Origin: Shewanella fidelis ATCC BAA-318
GTDB lineage: Bacteria; Pseudomonadota; Gammaproteobacteria; Enterobacterales; Shewanellaceae
DNA length: 64,000 bases
Assembly (NCBI RefSeq): GCF_000518605.1
Contig: NZ_JADX01000004.1
Coordinates: forward strand, 284,885-348,884
Direction of reading: 5' to 3'
The notes beneath the pieces are model-generated. The model had not been told where the DNA came from, did no database searches, and worked only from the letters and a program-made list of their open reading frames with translations. How positions within the stretch are numbered: position 1 is the stretch's first letter; the number at the start of each line of letters is the position of its first letter. Positions 435 through 51,890 of the stretch are shown here, piece after piece. The translations under genes and the position numbers were made by a program.

Positions 435-1646
435 TTACAACAACAACTCTTTTACCGACTTCATTGCATTAATGAAGTTGTCGATATCAGCTTTGTTAGT
501 ATAGACCCCAATCGATGCGCGGCAGCAGCCTTTTAAGCCTAAGGTTTGCATTAGTGGCATAGCGCAGTGATGGCCACAGCGTACCGCGATGCCTTGTTGA
601 TCAAGCAAAATACCGACATCTTGATGATGTTCATCGGCCAAGTTAAATGCCACTGCAGCAATATTGTCACTATGGGCAGCGTAAAGCACTATGTCGCCCA
701 ATTTTCTGAGTTCATCTTGCAGGTAATTAAGTAGTGCTTGTTCCTCTGCATGTACTTGATCTCTTGGCAGAGATTCGATGAAGTCGATTGCCGCACCTAA
801 GCCGATCACTTCAGCAATAGGCGGGGTACCCGCTTCAAGTCGGTTAGGTAAAATATTAAATTCAGTTTGCTCAAAGCTGACGCTTTTAATCATTTCACCG
901 CCAGTCATTAGAGGCGTTAACTTATCAAGCACATCATAGCGGCCATACAGCACGCCGACCCCTGTAGGCCCATACATCTTATGGCCAGAGAACACATAAA
1001 AATCACAATCAATGGCTTGTACGTCAACATTCATGTGGGCAATCGCCTGTGCGCCATCGACCAATGTGATAGCGCCTGCTTGTTTAGCTAAGCTAACTAG
1101 CTCGTGTACCGGGTTTAGCGTACCAAGTGCATTGGAAACATGGCTGAGGGCAACAATAGCTGGCTGCTGTTGTAGTAAGACTTTATAAGCGTTTAGATCT
1201 AAGCGCTGATCTGCTGTTAGCGGAATAGGTTTTACTTGCGCGCCAGTGCGTTTAGCCAGTTGCTGCCAAGGTACAATATTGGCGTGGTGAGCAGCGCTAT
1301 CAATTAAAATCAGTTGGCCTTTGCTCAGTTGCTCGGTTAAGCCGTTGGCAACGATATTGATTGACTCAGTGGTGCCATGGCTAAAAATGATCTCTTGTCG
1401 GCGTTCGGCGTTAATAAACTGCTTTAGCTTATCGCGCACGGCTTCATATTGGCTGGTGGCTCGAGCCGACAGCTGATGTGCAGCACGATGCACATTGGCA
1501 TTATCAAAACGATAATAGTGCGCCATAGCATCGATTACGCTCTGCGGCTTTTGGCTGGTCGCGGCGGTATCGAGATAGCACAAAGGGTAGCCATCATTTG
1601 ACTGTTCGAGTGTCGGAAATTGTGACCGCAGCGTTGAGAGAACCAT
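435..1646 (-). CDS. sufS: Cysteine desulfurase, SufS/CsdA type
   Basis: PLP-dependent enzyme (403 aa) that removes sulfur from L-cysteine, giving alanine and an enzyme persulfide for Fe-S cluster assembly or other sulfur transfer. The PLP lysine is K223 in SGHKMYGPTGVGVLYG. The persulfide cysteine is C361 in RCGHHCAMPLM, and HHANIVPW matches the cofactor-binding region. Length is typical of group II desulfurases (about 405 aa). RCGHHCAMPL resembles SufS more than CsdA, but no suf operon is visible here, so naming between sufS and csdA is uncertain. A SufE/CsdE partner may lie beyond the left edge. The ribosome binding site before the ATG is weak. Confidence 0.9.
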   Translation of the reverse strand: MVLSTLRSQFPTLEQSNDGYPLCYLDTAATSQKPQSVIDAMAHYYRFDNANVHRAAHQLSARATSQYEAVRDKLKQFINAERRQEIIFSHGTTESINIVANGLTEQLSKGQLILIDSAAHHANIVPWQQLAKRTGAQVKPIPLTADQRLDLNAYKVLLQQQPAIVALSHVSNALGTLNPVHELVSLAKQAGAITLVDGAQAIAHMNVDVQAIDCDFYVFSGHKMYGPTGVGVLYGRYDVLDKLTPLMTGGEMIKSVSFEQTEFNILPNRLEAGTPPIAEVIGLGAAIDFIESLPRDQVHAEEQALLNYLQDELRKLGDIVLYAAHSDNIAAVAFNLADEHHQDVGILLDQQGIAVRCGHHCAMPLMQTLGLKGCCRASIGVYTNKADIDNFINAMKSVKELLL

Positions 1647-1669
1647 AAAGCTGATCCGAGGTTATAAAT

Positions 1670-1704
1670 AAAAAGGCGCGCAGATCTTGTAAGATCTACG
1701 CGCC
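1670..1704 (-). terminator. Intrinsic terminator after tas
   Basis: A 12-13 bp GC-rich stem (GGCGCGCAGATCTT pairing with AAGATCTACGCGCC, one mismatch) is followed on the minus strand by TTTTTATTT. It lies 35 bp downstream of the aldo/keto reductase stop codon and separates it from the desulfurase gene. Confidence 0.85.
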
Positions 1705-1738
1705 TAAAGCAAGTTTAGACTGCTAAATTATGGCTTTT

Positions 1739-2782
1739 TTATGGGCAAGGTACTCGGTATTGCAGAGCTAGCTCGTCTAGACGCAACTGTAATTGTGGCG
1801 AAATAGCACAATTGATGCTGTCGATATTCTGTTGTAACTGCTCAAGATTAGTCGCACCAATAATATTGGAAGCAACAAATTTTCTGGAGTTAACAAAAGC
1901 TAGCGCCATTTGTGCAGGATTCAAATTAAACTCATGTGCTAGCTCGACATAAGCTTTAGTGGCGTCTAACGCCATTTGAGTACCGGTATAACGTGCAAAG
2001 CGCTTAAATAGCGTCATTCTCGCGCCTTCAGGCCATTGGTTATCGAGGTATTTACCTGATAGCGCACCAAATGCCAAAGGTGAATAAGCCAGTAATGGCA
2101 CTTCTTCACGGTGGCTGATTTCTGCCATGCCGATCTCATAGCTACGATTAAGTAAGTTATATGGGTTTTGTACCGAGATGATTTTTGGCAGGTCGTGCTT
2201 TTCGGCAAGTCGTAAGTACTCCATAAAGCCCCAAGGGGTTTCATTAGAGATCCCGATATAGCGGATTTTTCCAGCCTTAACCAGATCGGCCAGTGCTTCT
2301 AAGGTATCAATAATCGGTGTTTGCTTTTCTTGTTCATCGATTTGGTTATAGCTAAGTTCACCAAAGAAGTTAGTGTTTCTGTCGGGCCAATGTACTTGGT
2401 AAAGATCGATAGTATCGAGTTGTAGACGTGCAAGAGAGGCATCAACTGCAGCGTGGATATTGCGCCAGTCGAGCGCCATATTCGGGCGAATATAATCGCT
2501 CTTGCCACCGGGAGCAGCCACTTTACTGGCAATGATGAGGTTATCGCGATTACCTCTTTGCTTGAGGTAGTTACCTAAAATACGTTCGGTTTCGCCCTGA
2601 GTTTCCGCCTCAGGCGGAACGGGGTACATTTCTGCTGTATCAATGAAGTTAACGCCAGCACCAATGGCGTAGTCGAGTTGTTCGAATGCTTGAGCTTGGG
2701 TATTTTGGGCTCCCCAAGTCATGGTGCCTAGACAGATTTGGCTAACGTGTAAACTTGAATGCGAAAGACGTTTATATTCCAT
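1739..2782 (-). CDS. tas: Aldo/keto reductase, Tas family
   Basis: NADP(H)-dependent aldo/keto reductase of the Tas branch, 347 aa. The sequence follows E. coli Tas almost throughout: YKRLSHSSLHVSQICLGTMT at the N-terminus, IDTAEMYPVPPEAETQG with the catalytic Asp and Tyr, SKV with the catalytic Lys, LDLYQVHWPDR with the His, and IGATNLEQL near the cofactor site. The frame is open 15 codons further upstream. I chose the ATG at 2782 because TAGGTGG lies 6-12 bases before it and the protein then starts where Tas starts. The natural substrate is unknown. It is a single gene with its own terminator. Confidence 0.9.
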   Translation of the reverse strand: MEYKRLSHSSLHVSQICLGTMTWGAQNTQAQAFEQLDYAIGAGVNFIDTAEMYPVPPEAETQGETERILGNYLKQRGNRDNLIIASKVAAPGGKSDYIRPNMALDWRNIHAAVDASLARLQLDTIDLYQVHWPDRNTNFFGELSYNQIDEQEKQTPIIDTLEALADLVKAGKIRYIGISNETPWGFMEYLRLAEKHDLPKIISVQNPYNLLNRSYEIGMAEISHREEVPLLAYSPLAFGALSGKYLDNQWPEGARMTLFKRFARYTGTQMALDATKAYVELAHEFNLNPAQMALAFVNSRKFVASNIIGATNLEQLQQNIDSINCAISPQLQLRLDELALQYRVPCP

Positions 2783-2879
2783 AAAAAGCCACCTAATACG
2801 TGAATGCGCTTGATCTGAGGCTAGCAAGCTTTAGCGATAAAAACCATTAACTTATGAGGCCTAAGCCATTAAATAATCA

Positions 2880-3815
2880 TTAGCTCCGAGTGATTGGCTT
2901 AAGCATGGGAATTTCACAAGCATCGTGGCCTGTATTACCTAAAGGTGCATCAAGCTGATTAAAGCCAAGAGAAGCATACAAGTTAATCGCTTCAACTAAG
3001 TTGGCAGTGGTTTCTAAATAACACGCGTTATAGTGCTGTGTCTTGGCAAATTCGATGGCCATTAACGCTAGGCGTCGGGCAAACCCTTTGCCACGTAGCT
3101 CCGAAGCAAAATACATTTTTTGTAGCTCACAAACTCCCTCTTGGCCGTGTAGCGGTGCAACACCAGCACCGCCAAGCACTTTGCCATCTCGTTCAATCAC
3201 CCAATAGTGAGCATTAGCGTGTTGGTAAACCTCATATAAGCTATCTAAGCTCGGATCAGCAACGCCGTAACCTTTATCTGCGGTCAAACCATATTCAGCT
3301 GATACATCGCGGATCACTTGCGCTATTTGTGGGTTATCTTCTGCTGTGATGCTGCGCACTTGATATCCCTGTTGCGCTTTAGACTGCATTACCGCTTTGT
3401 TATAGCGCGCCAGTGAGACTTCAAGTTCATTAATATGCTCGCTTGGTAGTTGCGCTAAAATATCACTGAACTGCTGGTTTTGTTGTTGGTGTAGCTTCTG
3501 CAACTGCCTTTTACCTTTAGCGCTGATTTGTACCACTAGGCTGCGATTATCTCTAGGATTGGGTTGGGTGCTGGCGAATCCTTTTTCCACAAGGTGACTC
3601 ACAGCGCGGCTAGCGTTGGACTTATCAATATTTAGTAAGCTAGCAAGCTGCTTAATTGCATAGCTATTTTCACCTAATTCGATGAGAGCATGGGCTTGTA
3701 CCGGAGATAGCGGTTGATTACCACAGGCGGCGTCGAGTAAGCCTAGTTGGCGAATAAGTTGTCTTGAGAGACGACGAAGCAGGGACGCAGAATTAGGCTG
3801 GGCTTGACTCATCAA
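2880..3815 (-). CDS. MarR-family regulator fused to a GNAT acetyltransferase
   Basis: Two-domain protein of 311 aa. Residues ~10-140 form a MarR winged helix: the recognition region is around [18 protein letters not shown], followed by the wing [17 protein letters not shown]. Residues ~150-305 form a GNAT fold with the acetyl-CoA loop [10 protein letters not shown] and the C-terminal [10 protein letters not shown]. This MarR-GNAT architecture is known in proteobacteria and usually annotated as a bifunctional helix-turn-helix/GNAT protein. Target genes and acetyl acceptor cannot be read from sequence. It is monocistronic on the minus strand, between tas and yjjX. Confidence 0.88.
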
Positions 3816-3905
3816 ACAGCTCTTGTTTAGTTGCGGGTAACACCTAAGTTACGAGGACTATTTTCTAAAATCAAGCCTGTTAAGTTAAAAATAATAAAGT
3901 TACTA

Positions 3906-4445
3906 CTAATTTATATAGAGTTCAGGATGCAGTATTGCTGCCATAGCTAAGATGATGGCTTGCGTGTAGTTACTTTGGCGGGTTTCATTACCATTGGTTA
4001 GTAAGGATATTGCACCACCTTTTTGTTTTATATTGACGGTATCAAACATCGCATCCATTACATGCCCTAACTCCTGGCCTTGGGTGAGTGCTTGGTATAC
4101 AGCCATAGGTAAAGGAAGCTGCGCACCACGGCCAATGCTAACTTGCTCTTTGTGGGCTATGGCAATATAAGCAAAGGTCGCTGGTCCATGTTCAAACAGC
4201 TCAACCCCGCCCTCCATTGCAATGTAGTAATCTGCTTGATATACCGATTGGCAATGTTTAACTCGGTTAATTGCGCCTAATTTAGTTTCTGCGTCGGTCA
4301 TGGGTTGATCGGCAACTAAAGAAGGTGCATCAACTCCGTCACATTGGATCTGGTGTTCAGGGAAAAGGCGCTCAAAGGCGACTTGGGCTGCGGCGACTTT
4401 TACTGGATTTTTTGAACCCACAATAATGCGTATTGCTGCTTTCAT
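3906..4445 (-). CDS. yjjX: Inosine/xanthosine triphosphatase (YjjX family)
   Basis: House-cleaning phosphatase of 179 aa that hydrolyses ITP and XTP and so keeps deaminated purines out of nucleic acids. Family signs are the N-terminal IIVGSKNPVKVAAA nucleotide-binding loop, QPMTDAETKLGAINR, and YYIAMEGGVE in the middle. Length fits the family (about 170-180 aa). It stands alone on the minus strand, with a long AT-rich intergenic region between it and the divergent sdaC. Confidence 0.9.
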   Translation of the reverse strand: MKAAIRIIVGSKNPVKVAAAQVAFERLFPEHQIQCDGVDAPSLVADQPMTDAETKLGAINRVKHCQSVYQADYYIAMEGGVELFEHGPATFAYIAIAHKEQVSIGRGAQLPLPMAVYQALTQGQELGHVMDAMFDTVNIKQKGGAISLLTNGNETRQSNYTQAIILAMAAILHPELYIN

Positions 4446-15182: not shown

Positions 15183-15571
15183 GGTGTACTTCCCTTGGCT
15201 TTTACTGTTCCATTTGTAATGCGGATGACACCATAACATAGGTATGAGTGATAAATTAACTACGAGTTAGCTCGTTTACATTGCTGCTAGCATGTCGCCA
15301 TATTCGATTATTGGTTGTTGTGGCTGAGAGCAGTTAGAGGATGCTTCAGTGATAGGGGGCTAACTCAAATCTAAGTTTTGAAGTTTGATAAACCCGACTC
15401 GCAACTATGACTGCTCAAGAGTGACACCAGCGGCAGAACAAGGTATTTTTACGCCCTTGTACGTTATCTAGCGTCAATGCTGGCATTATAAAGCCGCTAG
15501 TCTAGGATCAGAGCACTGGTTTTAATTTTTACACTTTTCGAAGCTTGTATGCTTCGCCTGGAAAACAACAT
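15183..15571. other. Intergenic region, nothing recognised
   Basis: 389 bp between divergent genes. It must carry two promoters, but I see no convincing operator, RNA gene or repeat. Confidence 0.5.
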
Positions 15572-16267
15572 ATGAGTAGTACATCGACACATAAACCTCG
15601 GCCTATGGTTGATCTGTTAGTAAGTATCGCCATTCCCGCTTTTATCTTAATGAAGTTAAGTGGTGATGCTCAGCTAGGTGCGAGTGGTGGTTTAATGTTG
15701 GCGTTAAGCTTTCCATTAGGCTGGGGTATTTTTGAGCTTATCAAATACAGAAAATTTAATTTTATCGCCTTGCTTGGCCTAGCCAATGTGGCGCTAACCG
15801 GCGGTATTGGTTTACTGGAACTTGATCTGAAGTGGTTAGCAATCAAAGAAGCAGCGATTCCAGCGGTTATCGGTATTGCCGTGCTTATTTCGACCTTTAC
15901 TTCTAAGCCACTAATCAAAGCTATGGTCTTTAATCCTGCGGTGATGGACGTAGATAAGATCATGCAGCGCTTACAAGAGAACAATTGTATGGCGGCGTTT
16001 GAAAAGCGACTCATGAATGCTACCTATATGGTTGCAGGCTCATTTGCGTTCTCGGCCACGATGAATTACATATTGGCAAAGTGGATCGTGACCAGCCCAA
16101 CAGGCACCCCTGAGTTTAATGAGCAGTTGGGGGAGTTGAGTTTATACAGTTACCCAATGATTGCTGTGCCATCTATGTTGATGATGATGGCCACGTTTTA
16201 TTATCTATGGCGTACGATTCGTGATTTAACCGGGCTTAAATTGGAAGAGGTTTTGGCAAACCAGTAA
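15572..16267 (+). CDS. VC0807-type multi-pass membrane protein
   Basis: 231 aa with about six hydrophobic segments (residues ~15-30, 38-55, 65-85, 90-108, 155-175, 195-215). It resembles the VC0807 family of uncharacterised inner-membrane proteins: the N-terminal RPMVDLLVSIAIPAFILMKL and VAGSFAFSATMNYILAKWIV are the parts I used. The frame opens at a TTG at 15545; the ATG at 15572 gives a more usual N-terminus. Function unknown. The multi-hairpin repeat begins seven bases after its stop. Confidence 0.65.
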   Translation: MSSTSTHKPRPMVDLLVSIAIPAFILMKLSGDAQLGASGGLMLALSFPLGWGIFELIKYRKFNFIALLGLANVALTGGIGLLELDLKWLAIKEAAIPAVIGIAVLISTFTSKPLIKAMVFNPAVMDVDKIMQRLQENNCMAAFEKRLMNATYMVAGSFAFSATMNYILAKWIVTSPTGTPEFNEQLGELSLYSYPMIAVPSMLMMMATFYYLWRTIRDLTGLKLEEVLANQ

Positions 16268-16274
16268 TGGTTGT

Positions 16275-16640
16275 GTCAGGTTGCGTCTGACGGTTCGCTT
16301 TCTAGTAATCAAACTTCGTTTGATAAGTCTATCAGGCTACGCCTGACTTCTAAGTTAGACTTTGTCTAACAATTAACATCGTGGGATTCCATCCCACACC
16401 CGGGCAAAAGGGGGACAACAGCTTCCCCCTCTTGACCCTTTCTTTTATAAAGAGTCCCAGCCGCCCCGACGAAGTTGTTGATCCTCAGTTATTTTCGACA
16501 ATCGCTATCGCCTTATATTCGCCATCCATGGCTCACCTAAGGCTATCTCGGCATCCATGCCTCGCTCATGCGGCTAATGTTTACAAGAGCCTTCAATAAC
16601 CTCGGTAACTCCGATGGGGAATAGGCGTTTTCTGTGGGTT
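16275..16640 (+). repeat. String-of-hairpins repeat, copy A
   Basis: It begins seven bases after a stop codon with a row of short hairpins: GTCAGGTTGCGTCTGAC (16275), ATCAAACTTCGTTTGAT (16308), TCAGGCTACGCCTGA (16332), GTTAGACTTTGTCTAAC (16354) and GTGGGATTCCATCCCAC (16381). Then comes a larger helix, GGGCAAAAGGGGG against CCCCCTCTTGACCC (16402-16438), and then GCCATCCATGGC and GGCATCCATGCC. It ends in AACTCCGATGGGGAATAGG and GCGTTTTCTGT. Copies B (18694-18976, inverted) and C (51579-51890) have the same order. ORFs called inside it are not credible genes. Confidence 0.8.
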
Positions 16641-16680
16641 TGTAATGAGCTGATAGCTTTTAGTTATGGCAATCAGATAT

Positions 16681-16785
16681 GCGCTAAGGCCTCAATATGG
16701 GGCGCATAAAAGCATGGCTATAATTAGCGACGAAGGAGCGCAAGCCATGCGTTTTTCGTCCATGCCATTATTGACTTGTTATGTT
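16681..16785 (-). repeat. attC-like site c (cassette 3)
   Basis: Follows the stop of the 132-aa cassette gene. It opens with ATAACAAG, and its central stem pairs AGCATGGCT with AGCCATGCG across a GC-rich spacer. The distal end (CCTTAGCGC) departs from the usual GTTRRRY core, so this site may be degenerate and mark the end of the array. Confidence 0.6.
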
Positions 16786-17177
16786 TCCCAACTCGTATCA
16801 TCACCTATACATTTAAAGGCTATGCTCGATCTACCATTCAGGTTGAAAGTAACCTTAGTCCCATTTTCAATTGCTTTCGTTTCACAAGATACTATTTGTG
16901 ACCCCGCAATATTCAACTCATTTCCTAGGTCACGAAACTTATATACGGTTTCATCAAATTTAATTATGTGCTCATTTTCGAAGTCAGTAATATCTTGACG
17001 CCAGAAAACAATGCCGCAATCAAAGTAAAGTCGATACCAAGTATTGTCGACGTTGAGATAGACGACATTGGCCACTTCTTCACAGATGCCATCATACCAG
17101 AACTCCTGCACTATCAATTTTTTTAGTGCTTTACCATTTAGCTCGGGCACTACGCCGTTAATTTCAAGTTCATCCAT
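16779..17177 (-). CDS. Hypothetical cassette-borne protein
   Basis: 132 aa, soluble, acidic (MDELEINGVVPELNGKALKK...). Aromatic-rich segments VVYLNVDNTWYRLYFDCG and FDETVYKFRDLGNELN suggest a beta-rich fold. No family recognised. The start codon lies 14 bases after the presumed recombination point of the upstream attC, and the stop lies inside the next attC-like site, as expected for an integron gene cassette. Base composition is more AT-rich than flanking core genes. Confidence 0.65.
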   Translation of the reverse strand: MDELEINGVVPELNGKALKKLIVQEFWYDGICEEVANVVYLNVDNTWYRLYFDCGIVFWRQDITDFENEHIIKFDETVYKFRDLGNELNIAGSQIVSCETKAIENGTKVTFNLNGRSSIAFKCIGDDTSWET

Positions 17178-17190
17178 AATCTAAGGGAAA

Positions 17191-17290
17191 CATAACGCCC
17201 CAATAATGGGCAAATAACAGTTGGTTAAAATAAGCGACGCAGGAGCAAAAACCAACTGTTATTTGTCCTGATTAATTGGCTTGTTATAAC
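17191..17290 (-). repeat. attC-like site b (cassette 2)
   Basis: On the minus strand it runs from GTTATAACAAGCC to GGGGCGTTATG. The core helix pairs AACAGTTGGTT with AACCAACTGTT around a short GC-rich spacer (GCTCCTGCGTCGC). Terminal complementarity, size (100 bp) and position at the stop codon of the cassette ORF match VCR-type attC sites. Confidence 0.8.
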
Positions 17291-17754
17291 TCACAAGCCA
17301 CCGTAATTTTTTTTGATTGCACTTTTCCACTTGTGAGGAGAACAAACTCCACTTCATTTTGTACTAAGTTCGAGGTTTCACTGCTAGGCTCGCAGTCAAC
17401 CTCTTCACCAAATAGTATATAAAGGCTATAGGATGAAGGTATATCAGCTTTTTTCTCGCCGTTTATTCTTAAATTAAGACCGTTAGAATAAACTAAGCCT
17501 ATATTATTTAAATTAGGAGATTTAAATCCCTCAAACGATTTTTCAGACAACTCCATTTTTACATTATTTATGATGAGTTCGAACTCTGTCATTTCATCTA
17601 AATAATTTGAGCCTCTTTTAGCTGTTAACGTGTAATTGTGATTGCCTTGAAAACCACCTGAAATATTTATTTCATTTGGAGTTAACACAACTGGAGAGCT
17701 TGCCTGTGCAAAAGCGCAGATTATCACCAATGTTAAAAAGATCGCATATTTCAT
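17284..17754 (-). CDS. Hypothetical secreted cassette-borne protein
   Basis: 156 aa with a clear signal peptide (MKYAIFLTLVIICAFAQAS). The mature part is probably an all-beta periplasmic or secreted domain (LTPNEINISGGFQGNHNYTL; VEFVLLTSGKVQSKKITVAC) with cysteines C129 and C154 that could pair. No family recognised. The ATG is seven bases from the attC boundary, leaving no room for a standard ribosome binding site, and TAA overlaps the next attC. It is AT-rich. Confidence 0.65.
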   Translation of the reverse strand: MKYAIFLTLVIICAFAQASSPVVLTPNEINISGGFQGNHNYTLTAKRGSNYLDEMTEFELIINNVKMELSEKSFEGFKSPNLNNIGLVYSNGLNLRINGEKKADIPSSYSLYILFGEEVDCEPSSETSNLVQNEVEFVLLTSGKVQSKKITVACEL

Positions 17755-17760
17755 AGTGAG

Positions 17761-17866
17761 TTATAACGCCCGCATAAGGGGCTGATAATGCTTGGCTATA
17801 CTTGTGCAGCGAAGCGGAACCGAGCCAAGCGTTAGCAGTCCCTTCACTTTATGCTCTTGTTATATT
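17761..17866 (-). repeat. attC-like site a (cassette 1)
   Basis: The best attC of the cluster. On the minus strand it starts TATAACAAGAGC and ends CAGCCCCTTATGCGGGCGTT followed by ATAAC, very close to the terminus of Vibrio-type repeats. The long stem pairs CTAACGCTTGGCT with AGCCAAGCATTAT. The stop codon of the RraB-like ORF lies inside it. Confidence 0.85.
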
Positions 17867-18248
17867 CGCTTTCAAATCCCCAACCATCACTTTTTCCACC
17901 GTATTTAGTTGCTACTTCTGCAAATGTGCTTTCCACATGAGTGATGTTTTCGGGTGTTGGCTCCATAATAACCGAGACATAAACATCGTAGCCTTTTGAA
18001 ACTTCATTTGTATAAATGGCGACTTTGATATTTTCATATGAATTATCTACTTCATAGGCCATTTTTACAGCTGATTCTTCATCTTTAAATAAATGGAAGA
18101 AATCAATTTCATATTCTCGATTTAGGTTTACGCCACGTTCAAGCATGTTTTGTAATACTTGACCATTTTCATCATTGGGGTACTGCATTTCTTTTCCTTG
18201 TGCAGTAAAAGATAGAAGTAGAATAATAATTAAATATATGAAACGCAC
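17844..18248 (-). CDS. RraB-family protein with signal peptide, in a gene cassette
   Basis: 134 aa. Residues ~22-125 fit the RraB (RNase E inhibitor) family: YPNDENGQVLQNMLERGVNL, IDFFHLFKDEESAVKMAYEV, YDVYVSVIMEPTPENITHVE and KYGGKSDGWGFES. Unlike RraB, which acts on RNase E in the cytoplasm, it begins with a hydrophobic export signal (MRFIYLIIILLLSFTAQG). Either the domain works outside the cytoplasm or this is a membrane-anchored variant. It starts at GTG with AGGGA upstream. It is the first cassette of the array as read on the minus strand. Confidence 0.72.
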   Translation of the reverse strand: MRFIYLIIILLLSFTAQGKEMQYPNDENGQVLQNMLERGVNLNREYEIDFFHLFKDEESAVKMAYEVDNSYENIKVAIYTNEVSKGYDVYVSVIMEPTPENITHVESTFAEVATKYGGKSDGWGFESEYNKSIK

Positions 18249-18274
18249 AACCAGTCTTCCCTGCGAATATAACA

Positions 18275-18693
18275 GTGTATTAGGCTGAATTCCGAATAAG
18301 AACAGTTAGCCTAGTTAATCCTATGCGAACAAGGTAACCGTAGATGTCTTTTTAATCAATGCCTTAATGGGTGCCGTCTTGTGAGACTACTGACTCTTCT
18401 GATGGTGAAAACCAGAATTTACTTATTTGTGACGAGATTTGATTTAACTATTGGGGAGAAATCTTTTTTAACAGCCACTTAGCAGTTGTTAACTTTAAAT
18501 TGTTTTCCTTCTTACACCAAAATAATGCTGAAAATTCACAATGCTTGTTATAACTGTTTATATGTACAGCTAGTGTAAAGATGAGGCTATGCATGAGCTT
18601 TCATATTAGGTTTTCTACTAACAAAGGTTCAAATTTGCTACTCAACTCTTGTTGTAGTGAAAATGATTTAGGGGCAAAAGTTAGTCACAAAAC
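18275..18693. other. Gene-free spacer between cassettes and repeat B
   Basis: About 420 bp. An ATATAAC at 18268-18274 could be the recombination boundary of the first cassette. Beyond that I see only AT-rich sequence without ORF, attC, or a recognisable integrase remnant. Confidence 0.5.
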
Positions 18694-18976
18694 TTACAGA
18701 AAACACCTGTCCCCATCGGAGTTGCCGAGGTCATTGAAGACAATCGCGTGAGCGAGGCATGGATGCCGAGATAGCCTCAGGTGAGCCATGGATGGCGAAT
18801 ATGAGGCGATAGCGATTTTCGAAAATGACTGAGGATCAACAACTCCGTTGGGGCGGCAGGGGAGATGCAAGAGGGGATTGCTGTTGATCCCCTTTTGCCC
18901 GAGTGTGAGCTGGAAGCTCACGACCTTTATCAAACGAAGTTTGATTGCTTCAAAGGCCGTAAGGCCTCAAATAAAA
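18694..18976 (-). repeat. String-of-hairpins repeat, copy B (inverted)
   Basis: Read on the minus strand it starts 17 bp after the stop of the GNAT gene. Hairpins are AGGCCTTACGGCCT (18953), ATCAAACTTCGTTTGAT (18929) and GTGAGCTTCCAGCTCAC (18905), then the GGGCAAAAGGGGATC helix, GCCATCCATGGC, GGCATCCATGCC and a terminal AACTCCGATGGGGACAGG. The middle ~130 bp are nearly identical to copy A. The GTGAGCT/AGCTCAC stem differs from copy A (GTGGGAT/ATCCCAC) but remains paired. Confidence 0.8.
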
Positions 18977-18982
18977 CGACAG

Positions 18983-19471
18983 CTATCGTTCAATAGCACC
19001 AGTAAATCCCATTAACACCAACCTCTCATCATCCCCCTGATACTTCAAAAACAACTGCGCAATATCATTGGGTGCTGATGTCACAGCGCTAAACCCATGT
19101 TGTGTGTAAAACCCTTCTAAATGGGCTAGGGCAAAAATGTAAGTTTTGCCATCACAAATAACGGATGCCAGTTCTCGCATCAACTGATGCCCAACACCTT
19201 GGTCACGAAAATCGGGATGCACCAACATGCCGGTTAAAATGGCTAACTGGCCAATAGGTCGAATACGGGCACTGGCAATGATTTTAGAAAGAGTAATGCT
19301 TGAGCAAGAGGCGCCAGAAGAAGATAGTTCAGCGTCGTTAGCCGAAGTGCAGCTCCCTTGGGTTAACACGCAGACAGATTCTTTCTGCAACAAGCGTGCA
19401 TAAGGCAGGTGCTTACGATAGAACTTCTTCACCTCGATACGCTCATCAGGCGCTAACCAAGTTAATTGCAC
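18983..19471 (-). CDS. GNAT acetyltransferase with a low-complexity insert
   Basis: 162 aa, starting MQLTWLAPDERIEVKKFYRK. The acetyl-CoA loop is VHPDFRDQGVGHQLMRELAS, and LEGFYTQHGF is the C-terminal helix-strand. Residues ~33-63 (SVCVLTQGSCTSANDAEL and following) are serine- and cysteine-rich and interrupt the usual beta2-beta3 region. They may be a surface loop or a recent duplication/insertion. It is similar in size to YhbS/PA2578-like acetyltransferases. Substrate unknown. Confidence 0.78.
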   Translation of the reverse strand: MQLTWLAPDERIEVKKFYRKHLPYARLLQKESVCVLTQGSCTSANDAELSSSGASCSSITLSKIIASARIRPIGQLAILTGMLVHPDFRDQGVGHQLMRELASVICDGKTYIFALAHLEGFYTQHGFSAVTSAPNDIAQLFLKYQGDDERLVLMGFTGAIER

Positions 19472-51578: not shown

Positions 51579-51890
51579 CGATTAGTGATTGGCTAATCAA
51601 GCTACGCTTGGGCTTTGGGTTAGACTGCGTCTAACAACTAAAGTCGTGGGATTCCATCCCACACCCGGGCAAGAGGGGGACAACAGCTTCCCCCTCTTGC
51701 CCTTTCTTTTATAAAGAGTCCCAGCCGCCCCAGACGAAGTTGTCTCCCTCGTACTTATTCGAAATAACCTAACGCTTCCGATGGGGCATCCTGCCCCGCG
51801 AAAGCTAGCCAGACATCCATGTCTGGACTCACGAAATTTATTCCAACGTACTTCGGCAACTTCGATGGGGAATTGGTGTTTTCTGTTAGC
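51579..51890 (+). repeat. String-of-hairpins repeat, copy C
   Basis: Starts five bases past the cyuP stop. Hairpins: GATTAG...CTAATC (51579), AAGCTACGCTT (51600), GTTAGACTGCGTCTAAC (51619) and GTGGGATTCCATCCCAC (51646); then GGGCAAGAGGGGG against CCCCCTCTTGCCC, GGGGCATCCTGCCCC and CAGACATCCATGTCTG. It ends GGCAACTTCGATGGGGAATT and GGTGTTTTCTGTTAG. Order and 5' half match copies A and B; the central hairpins are different sequences with the same form. Confidence 0.8.

Follow-up and report, generated by a model that had tools for sequence, protein, structure and literature searches.

The 64,000-nucleotide stretch of Shewanella fidelis ATCC BAA-318 analysed here (the window) holds three copies of one dispersed element, which we call A (16275–16640), B (18694–18976) and C (51596–51886). 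A and B lie inverted to each other in the gap between two host genes and are complementary over blocks of 117 nucleotides (nt; 93%), 63 nt (79%), 30 nt (93%), 29 nt (90%) and 25 nt (80%). The gene to their left (15545–16267, plus strand) encodes 240 amino acids (aa) without a Pfam match above the cut-off and adjoins the site in 14 fetched loci. The gene to their right (18983–19471, minus strand), identified from its open reading frame (ORF) and by Pfam, encodes a GNAT acetyltransferase and is likewise a neighbour in the fetched loci. Between A and B are three ORFs accompanied by sites resembling attC, which bears out an earlier interpretation of the letters alone (the sequence-only reading) that the two copies stand in inverted orientation around gene cassettes. 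A second copy was not found near C in the window.

The element consists of a string of hairpins, 17 nt each with 7-bp arms and a loop of 3 nt, next to a host gene's 3' end, plus a core of ≈ 230 nt. In the orientation of A, the core runs from hairpin H1 to hairpin H2, then to a long stem ending in two hairpins, and finishes at a right ("sharp") end, GGTGTTTTCTGT. A covariance model of 230 positions and 76 pairs built from 51 copies, R1, gave three matches in the window at E ≤ 0.01. These were the folded cores of A (16376–16635, minus as the folded strand; 131.3 bits, E = 4.2e-31), which also aligned directly with other copies, of B (18696–18926, plus as the folded strand; 175.7 bits, E = 5.1e-42) and of C (51641–51886, minus strand; 227.9 bits, E = 6.8e-55). 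The fold of A was better than those of its dinucleotide shuffles, with a z score of −5.3 and 0 of 100 shuffles equally good; for B, z was −7.5 and 0 of 200 shuffles did equally well. The short-hairpin string of A (16275–16380; 7-bp arms, 3-nt loops, with hairpin families counted) adjoins the 3' end of the upstream gene, and the short hairpins of B (18927–18976) adjoin that of the GNAT gene. H1 (16381–16397) and H2 (16404–16435) of A, both read from the sequence on the minus strand, are helices 10 and 9 of the covariation alignment described below. H1 is GTGGGAT-TCC-ATCCCAC in A and C; in B (18905–18921, plus strand) it is GTGAGCT-TCC-AGCTCAC when read on the minus strand. This swap of both arms had been pointed out in the sequence-only reading together with a change in both arms of the next helix, and both are present as described.

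The three cassettes between A and B all lie on the minus strand. The first comprises an attC-like site (16684–16800), 73.7% identical to the second site, and an ORF of 132 aa (16779–17177) without a Pfam match. The second has a site (17193–17288) with 19-nt inner arms that are 95% complementary, of which 89–99% identical copies occur among the other genus genomes listed, and a 156-aa ORF (17284–17754) taken from the ORF list and run against Pfam. The third joins a site (17763–17866), with 91–96% identical copies among the other genus genomes listed, to a 134-aa ORF (17844–18248) of the RraB family (regulator of ribonuclease activity B; PF06877, 2.2e-20). With attC-like sites present in the cargo, as in an integron, this segment looks like the remnant of a three-cassette integron. 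By similarity, one attC-like site each was placed in two fetched loci, L143 and L204 (fetched loci carry L numbers). A regular-expression scan of 13 other cargo regions gave none, but it was insensitive, having missed the L143 site that was placed by blast. Locus L204 holds a second unit (703–4339), which has an attC-like site and five ORFs, one of them for a TIR-domain protein.

At Rfam gathering thresholds, the window gave no match. A permissive search alone revealed TwoAYGGAY (RF01731), which matched A at 16467–16607 on the minus strand (37.0 bits, E = 0.0015) and B at 18695–18867 on the plus strand (37.3 bits, E = 0.0013). In both copies this is the strand that wobble pairs identify as the folded one (see below). 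The gathering score was exceeded by L011 from the same genome as the window (48.0 bits), by L299 (49.6), L302 (62.4), L294 (46.8) and L301 (57.1), and at three places of a Pseudoalteromonas record; most other fetched loci with a core had no gathering-level match. Ten places matched both R1 and RF01731 (A, B, L011, L292, L294, L299, L301, L302 and two in L321), and the strands agreed in all of them. Two hairpins of the AYGGAY type are present in A, with AUGGAU loops (16521–16532 and 16550–16561, minus strand), and in B (18756–18767 and 18785–18796); the stem shared by both hairpins is there as well, and the strand is that of the model. At least two CA(N)GGAYG motifs were found in 60 of 71, 47 of 58 and 18 of 23 near-full copies of the three sequence types. 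Scoring below the gathering cut-off of 43 bits, A and B are classed here as TwoAYGGAY-like relatives rather than members. The sequence-only reading had recognised no named family; the existence of a named relative refines it. In the sections of the literature on which we draw, TwoAYGGAY is described as "probably RNA" and not cis-regulatory, from the human gut, gamma-proteobacteria and Clostridiales (Weinberg et al. 2010, PMC2864571). Binding of CsrA was proposed in a 2014 paper (PMC4333381), a 2025 paper calls the family relatively unexplored, and both of these describe its function as still unknown or unexplored; inverted pairs or cargo are not mentioned in those sections.

Selection on the fold was analysed in an alignment of 51 of the 58 near-full copies of type 2 (the seven omitted mostly carry long inserts). 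Both partners were altered in 22 of 61 pairs, and 97.7% of the cells pair. Uncompensated stem changes, which would tell against a selected fold, were thus not seen in any number. The covariation score was 0.290, compared with 0.143 ± 0.005 in 500 shuffles and 0.029–0.071 when the partners were slid. Among the unpaired variable sites of the two larger types, r2 was 0.24 and 0.35 for sites no more than 10 nt apart and 0.024 and 0.030 for those separated by over 100 nt, the permuted background being 0.016 and 0.024, while paired columns kept values of 0.65 and 0.58 (12 and 16 pairs). With linkage decaying between unpaired sites and paired columns staying linked, shared ancestry does not account for the covariation. 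Normalised information between partners at least 60 nt apart (60–135 nt) averaged 0.41 over 11 pairs in one type and 0.43 over 10 pairs in another, where unpaired columns reached 0.11 and 0.07; the third type, represented by 23 copies and 3 distant pairs, differed little (0.20 versus 0.14). With more copies, a covariance model, Rfam and a controlled covariation test, the claim of the sequence-only reading that the folded form is selected has gained support.

The strand that folds was identified from wobble pairs, counted only at pairs predicted for both strands. On the strand opposite to A, G·T exceeded A·C by 140 to 59, 139 to 40 and 55 to 16 in the three sequence types (334 versus 115 in total), and columns favouring G·T outnumbered those favouring A·C by 25:14, 36:10 and 23:6 (84 to 30). 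The consensus energies of that strand and of the other were −140.5 and −122.3, −170.0 and −151.9, and −161.9 and −137.5 kcal/mol. Since the wobble excess and the energies both favour the reverse complement of A, the folded molecule reads from the sharp end towards the hairpin string. The fold is conserved on this one strand, the one that runs outward from the gap between paired copies. The result is silent on RNA versus single-stranded DNA (ssDNA), because both tolerate G·T. On the folded strand, all nine of the commonest 17-nt units have GNA loops (TNC on the other strand), closed by a C-G pair in seven; over all distinct palindromes, chance ones included, GNA loops were found in 34 of 75. 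Beyond the sharp end, a control region of the same length contained 33 distinct palindromes. In one copy, pairing of the H2 loop with the P1-P2 junction as a pseudoknot seemed attractive, but it was rejected: the alleles were unassociated, with 38 of 45 showing one combination and 1 of 45 being compensated. The cores of L091 and L097 carry other hairpin sequences inserted in the loop of an apical hairpin.

Close copies of the element in Shewanella are mostly inverted pairs that enclose one or a few accessory genes between their inward-pointing sharp ends. In 14 genomes with 204 right ends altogether, 37 neighbours lay within 4.5 kb of each other, a limit that was set after the first positions had been seen: 26 faced inward, none faced apart and 11 pointed in the same direction. 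Right ends were accepted with up to 3 mismatches in five genomes and 2 in nine; pair positions were transferred by hand, and B was added by hand. The facing pairs enclose 0.6–4.4 kb of cargo. Searching with R1 gave 12 close pairs, of which 9 faced inward (2 in the same genome as the window, A/B among them), 0 apart and 3 the same way, a count that omits five neighbours less than 300 bp apart, all in the same direction. Two head-to-head pairs without cargo also exist, in L302 (genus Shewanella) and L294 (a relative), with spacers of 76–77 bp.

The cargo-side ends of the copies fall in part into two classes, which were seeded after the pattern had been noticed by eye and partly with ends of pairs that were later counted: 28 ends were assigned to class I and 16 to class II. 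Both ends were classed in 7 of the 26 facing pairs, one end in 5 and neither in 14; all seven doubly classed pairs were of the I/II type. These seven assignments held with leave-one-pair-out profiles, one end being weak at 5.7 bits. The end of B (18576–18695, minus strand) scored 36.8 bits with the class I profile and 29.5 bits when A and B were left out; its first 28 nt were among the eight hand-picked class I seeds. The end of A (16636–16683, plus strand) appears class II-like: in local alignment with 16 class II flanks it scored 24.9, as against 15.3 ± 1.5 for shuffled sequences (0 of 200 as good), while 73 of 200 shuffles did as well against class I flanks. In the eight units with both ends assigned (these seven and the window), 18 of 20 non-overlapping, mechanically called ORFs of at least 75 aa run from I to II.

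At one and the same host intergenic site, the cargo differs between species, and some species have none. Of 14 loci with both neighbours of the window site, three had neither core nor cargo (intergenic distances of 92, 158 and 220 bp), one had cargo with an element fragment only and ten had at least one core; in four of these ten, an inverted pair surrounded different cargo. At a second site, around 4.35 Mb in genome G053, flanks matched in other genomes and gap sizes varied. Clustering of proteins for the same cargo at different sites mostly returned common hot-spot neighbours. It also grouped ORFs lying beside or inside units in L157 (902–1918) and L159 (883–1920); these resemble IS110-family transposases, whose target the hairpins may be. 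Neither the H1 nor the H2 allele was detectably associated with core type (p = 0.32 and 0.28, "other" alleles excluded). In the right flanks of L004, L006, L032 and L069, another repeat, approximately CCCAGTGTAGATGCGGCTTAGG, is present in differing copies, often after the sharp end of the core.

The genome that contains the window yielded 29 blast pieces and at least 11 R1 matches, 11 candidates having been scored. Within the genus, the element was matched in 68 of 97 genomes, this one included (E ≤ 1e-5, at most 7 candidates scored per genome), and all 54 stretches of the genome collection with the exact right-end pattern are titled Shewanella. In the order, 19 of 197 genomes had an R1 match (E ≤ 0.001), 13 from the genus, again including the genome of the window, and 6 from other families. 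With stricter filters, 2 of 274 genomes of the class matched at E ≤ 1e-4, one of them being the same genome. A record of Pseudoalteromonas piscicida has seven alternating copies, six found with R1 and one with Rfam alone; this array (L321, 4803–7132) contains no internal ORF of at least 90 aa. Neither A, searched against plasmid and phage collections, nor the L302 pair, searched against the plasmid collection, gave a match. Blast pieces from Pasteurella, Burkholderia and Aeromonas, short in the first two and long in Aeromonas (94% covered at 74%), had no R1 match. In the Burkholderia loci, the blast piece adjoins the Rfam small RNA Bp1_684. In L297 (3927–4725), from a relative, a weak R1 match lies just past the 3' end of the tmRNA gene.

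Among 39 cores, 25 had no overlapping ORF, and 18 of these were preceded by the 3' end of the left-hand gene; the direction of the right-hand gene at those cores was unbiased (12 versus 13). Outside facing pairs there was a modest bias towards the direction of replication, 37 of 50 in four genomes (13/14, 11/18, 9/11 and 4/7), with p = 0.0009 against an expectation of 0.5 and 0.044 against 0.6, the contig start being assumed to be the origin. A hand count in a fifth genome, G225, gave 3 of 7. Gene direction may explain this bias.

Cargo-side proteins were analysed with Pfam (30, plus 5 from the window) and PADLOC (30, plus 10 host-side controls), all hand-picked; not all of them sit between two cores, as L144, L140 and L293 show a core on one side only, as far as could be seen. 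Pfam matches comprised Mrr_cat with M78, Schlafen AlbA_2 with NB-ARC, a GHKL ATPase and DUF2971, as well as AbiU2 HEPN, DUF4238, AAA_21, T5orf172, KAP NTPase and TIR; 15 of the 30 proteins had no match at E ≤ 0.001. PADLOC matched 10 of the 30 at E ≤ 0.001, six of them at E ≤ 1e-15, with names that include PD-Lambda-1 (2.4e-177), PDC-S20, AriA-like and PDC-S35. The three cassettes of the window gave no PADLOC match. With host-side controls matched as well (see below), an enrichment of defence genes in the cargo is suggestive rather than proven, and the link to defence is descriptive.

We propose that A, B and C are structured elements related to TwoAYGGAY, that the paired ones border exchangeable gene cassettes, and that the fold is kept for a role as RNA; we put the probability of this reading at about 0.55. 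The paired elements are inferred to act as cassette borders. Similar borders would allow cargo to be swapped between strains and species, mainly by homologous recombination, and this would shuffle the elements too. The shape of the RNA read outward would be kept because something reads it, perhaps CsrA via the conserved GGA loops; alternatively, the outward RNA might shield the flanking host genes from transcription of the cargo. Several observations weigh against this proposal. The scores of A and B fall short of the RF01731 cut-off of 43. Only 52 of the 204 right ends belong to facing pairs, and the Pseudoalteromonas array alternates strictly, so that its neighbours face apart as often as inward. 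Paired copies were not clearly more alike than expected, with the same type in 7 of 13 versus 5.0 expected. Most cargo-side ends (92 of 136) are unclassed, and in a profile built without A the end of A scored a weak 2.1 bits for class II and nothing for class I. PADLOC also matched 2 of the 10 host-side controls, one of them strongly (RtcR type). Among the listed cargo ORFs, most of them judged by eye, a shared recombinase or transposase was not recognised, and neither excision nor a circle, a target duplication or an exact empty-site junction was demonstrated.

The fold could instead act as ssDNA, the elements being the termini of a unit that moves by transposition or site-specific recombination, resembling attC or IS200/IS605, with the enzyme supplied in trans. 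Hairpin loops of the C-G-closed GNA class are unusually stable in DNA, and the uniform GNA (TNC) loops of the nine commonest units, seven of them so closed, fit such a unit; so do the inverted pairs with two distinct cargo ends, which resemble a two-ended mobile unit, and the head-to-head pairs that have 76- to 77-bp spacers in place of cargo. However, inverted copies leave each DNA strand with one end only in the folded orientation, and on the outside the element ends in a variable string of hairpins, not at a fixed terminus. The genome of the window has no match to a Y1 transposase, and a core was seen in none of the 30 Y1 loci fetched. We regard a role as ssDNA as rather unlikely. The same counts bear on palindromes of the REP/BIME type spread by a RAYT transposase, which the short palindromes downstream of genes and the Y1 transposases in 57 of 94 genus genomes might bring to mind. 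Here the absence of Y1 from the genome itself and the 0 of 30 Y1 loci with a nearby core leave a RAYT origin unsupported, and the four Y1 loci examined carry another repeat, GGTCAGAGTAAA or its complement. The 17-nt units, with 7-bp arms and 3-nt loops, also differ from CGTC repeats, with 8–9 bp and 4–5 nt in the part of the source drawn on (PMC3733652). We consider this origin very improbable. In those Y1-transposase loci (L131–L134), where the motif or its complement is nearby, it is the same motif that abuts the sharp end of some cores.

Two further explanations do without a function of the fold. The elements could be plain, non-mobile repeats that promote homologous recombination at hot spots, in the manner of the Neisseria mosaic intergenic repeats. 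The steep decay of linkage inside 230 nt would be expected of them, as would the mosaic alleles, with H1 and H2 not detectably associated with core type. Against this, paired columns stay linked amid the shuffling, the wobble is strand-specific and relatives with the same fold are present in other families of the order, so that we hold it to be unlikely. Alternatively, replication slippage in which one arm serves as the template for the other (quasi-palindrome correction) would produce compensated arms with neither function nor selection. It does not predict an excess of G·T over A·C on one strand (334 versus 115), nor the covariation of partners 60–135 nt apart, which was clear in two types and weak in the third; we give slippage hardly any credence.

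A bolder reading is tentative and, in our judgement, doubtful: structures of the TwoAYGGAY type would be the borders of an unrecognised gamma-proteobacterial cassette system, moved or exchanged by a mechanism that reads the folded strand running outward, with an enzyme in trans and often anti-phage cargo. Each unit of such a system would carry one or a few genes between two inverted copies at conserved host sites, with a 5' cargo end of class I that differs from its class II 3' end, and the cargo-less pairs (L302, L294) and alternating Pseudoalteromonas arrays (L321) would be its empty form. Inverted pairing, two kinds of cargo end and common hot spots offer a testable genomic context for an orphan RNA family, and the element may point to small defence cassettes beside TwoAYGGAY. 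Nearly free shuffling of sites with paired sites held together makes the element an exceptionally clear example of selection acting on structure, which can be used to address RNA versus DNA function.

The element can be compared with several known systems. Like integron cassettes without an integrase (CALIN), the cargo between A and B consists of ORFs with attC-like sites, whereas A and B themselves do not look like attC. As to a DNA transposon with terminal inverted repeats, marked by fixed outer termini, a target duplication and a transposase, the outer side of the element is a variable hairpin string, and a common transposase was not recognised among the listed cargo ORFs. It shares with REP, BIME and CGTC-tagged palindromes, as covered in the part of the source drawn on (PMC3733652), the placement of short palindromes after genes; it is unlike them in its stem and loop sizes, its large composite fold and a RAYT link that was not found, and its units of 7 bp and 3 nt depart from the stem of 8–9 bp, loop of 4–5 nt and CGTC tag of the CGTC family. 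In arrangement it resembles the Neisseria mosaic intergenic repeats with dRS3 and the minimal mobile elements which, in the parts of that literature drawn on, are mosaic repeats beside exchangeable genes. For these, exchange through homologous recombination has been proposed. Unlike dRS3, described there as a 20-bp repeat, the Shewanella element shows strand-specific covariation over a fold of 230 nt and has cargo ends that differ from each other. With TwoAYGGAY it has in common two neighbouring AYGGAY-loop hairpins on a common stem and on the same strand, and a copy in the genome of the window passes the gathering score. To these the Shewanella element adds H2, H1 and the string of 17-nt hairpins, and many of its copies are paired in inverted orientation around cargo.

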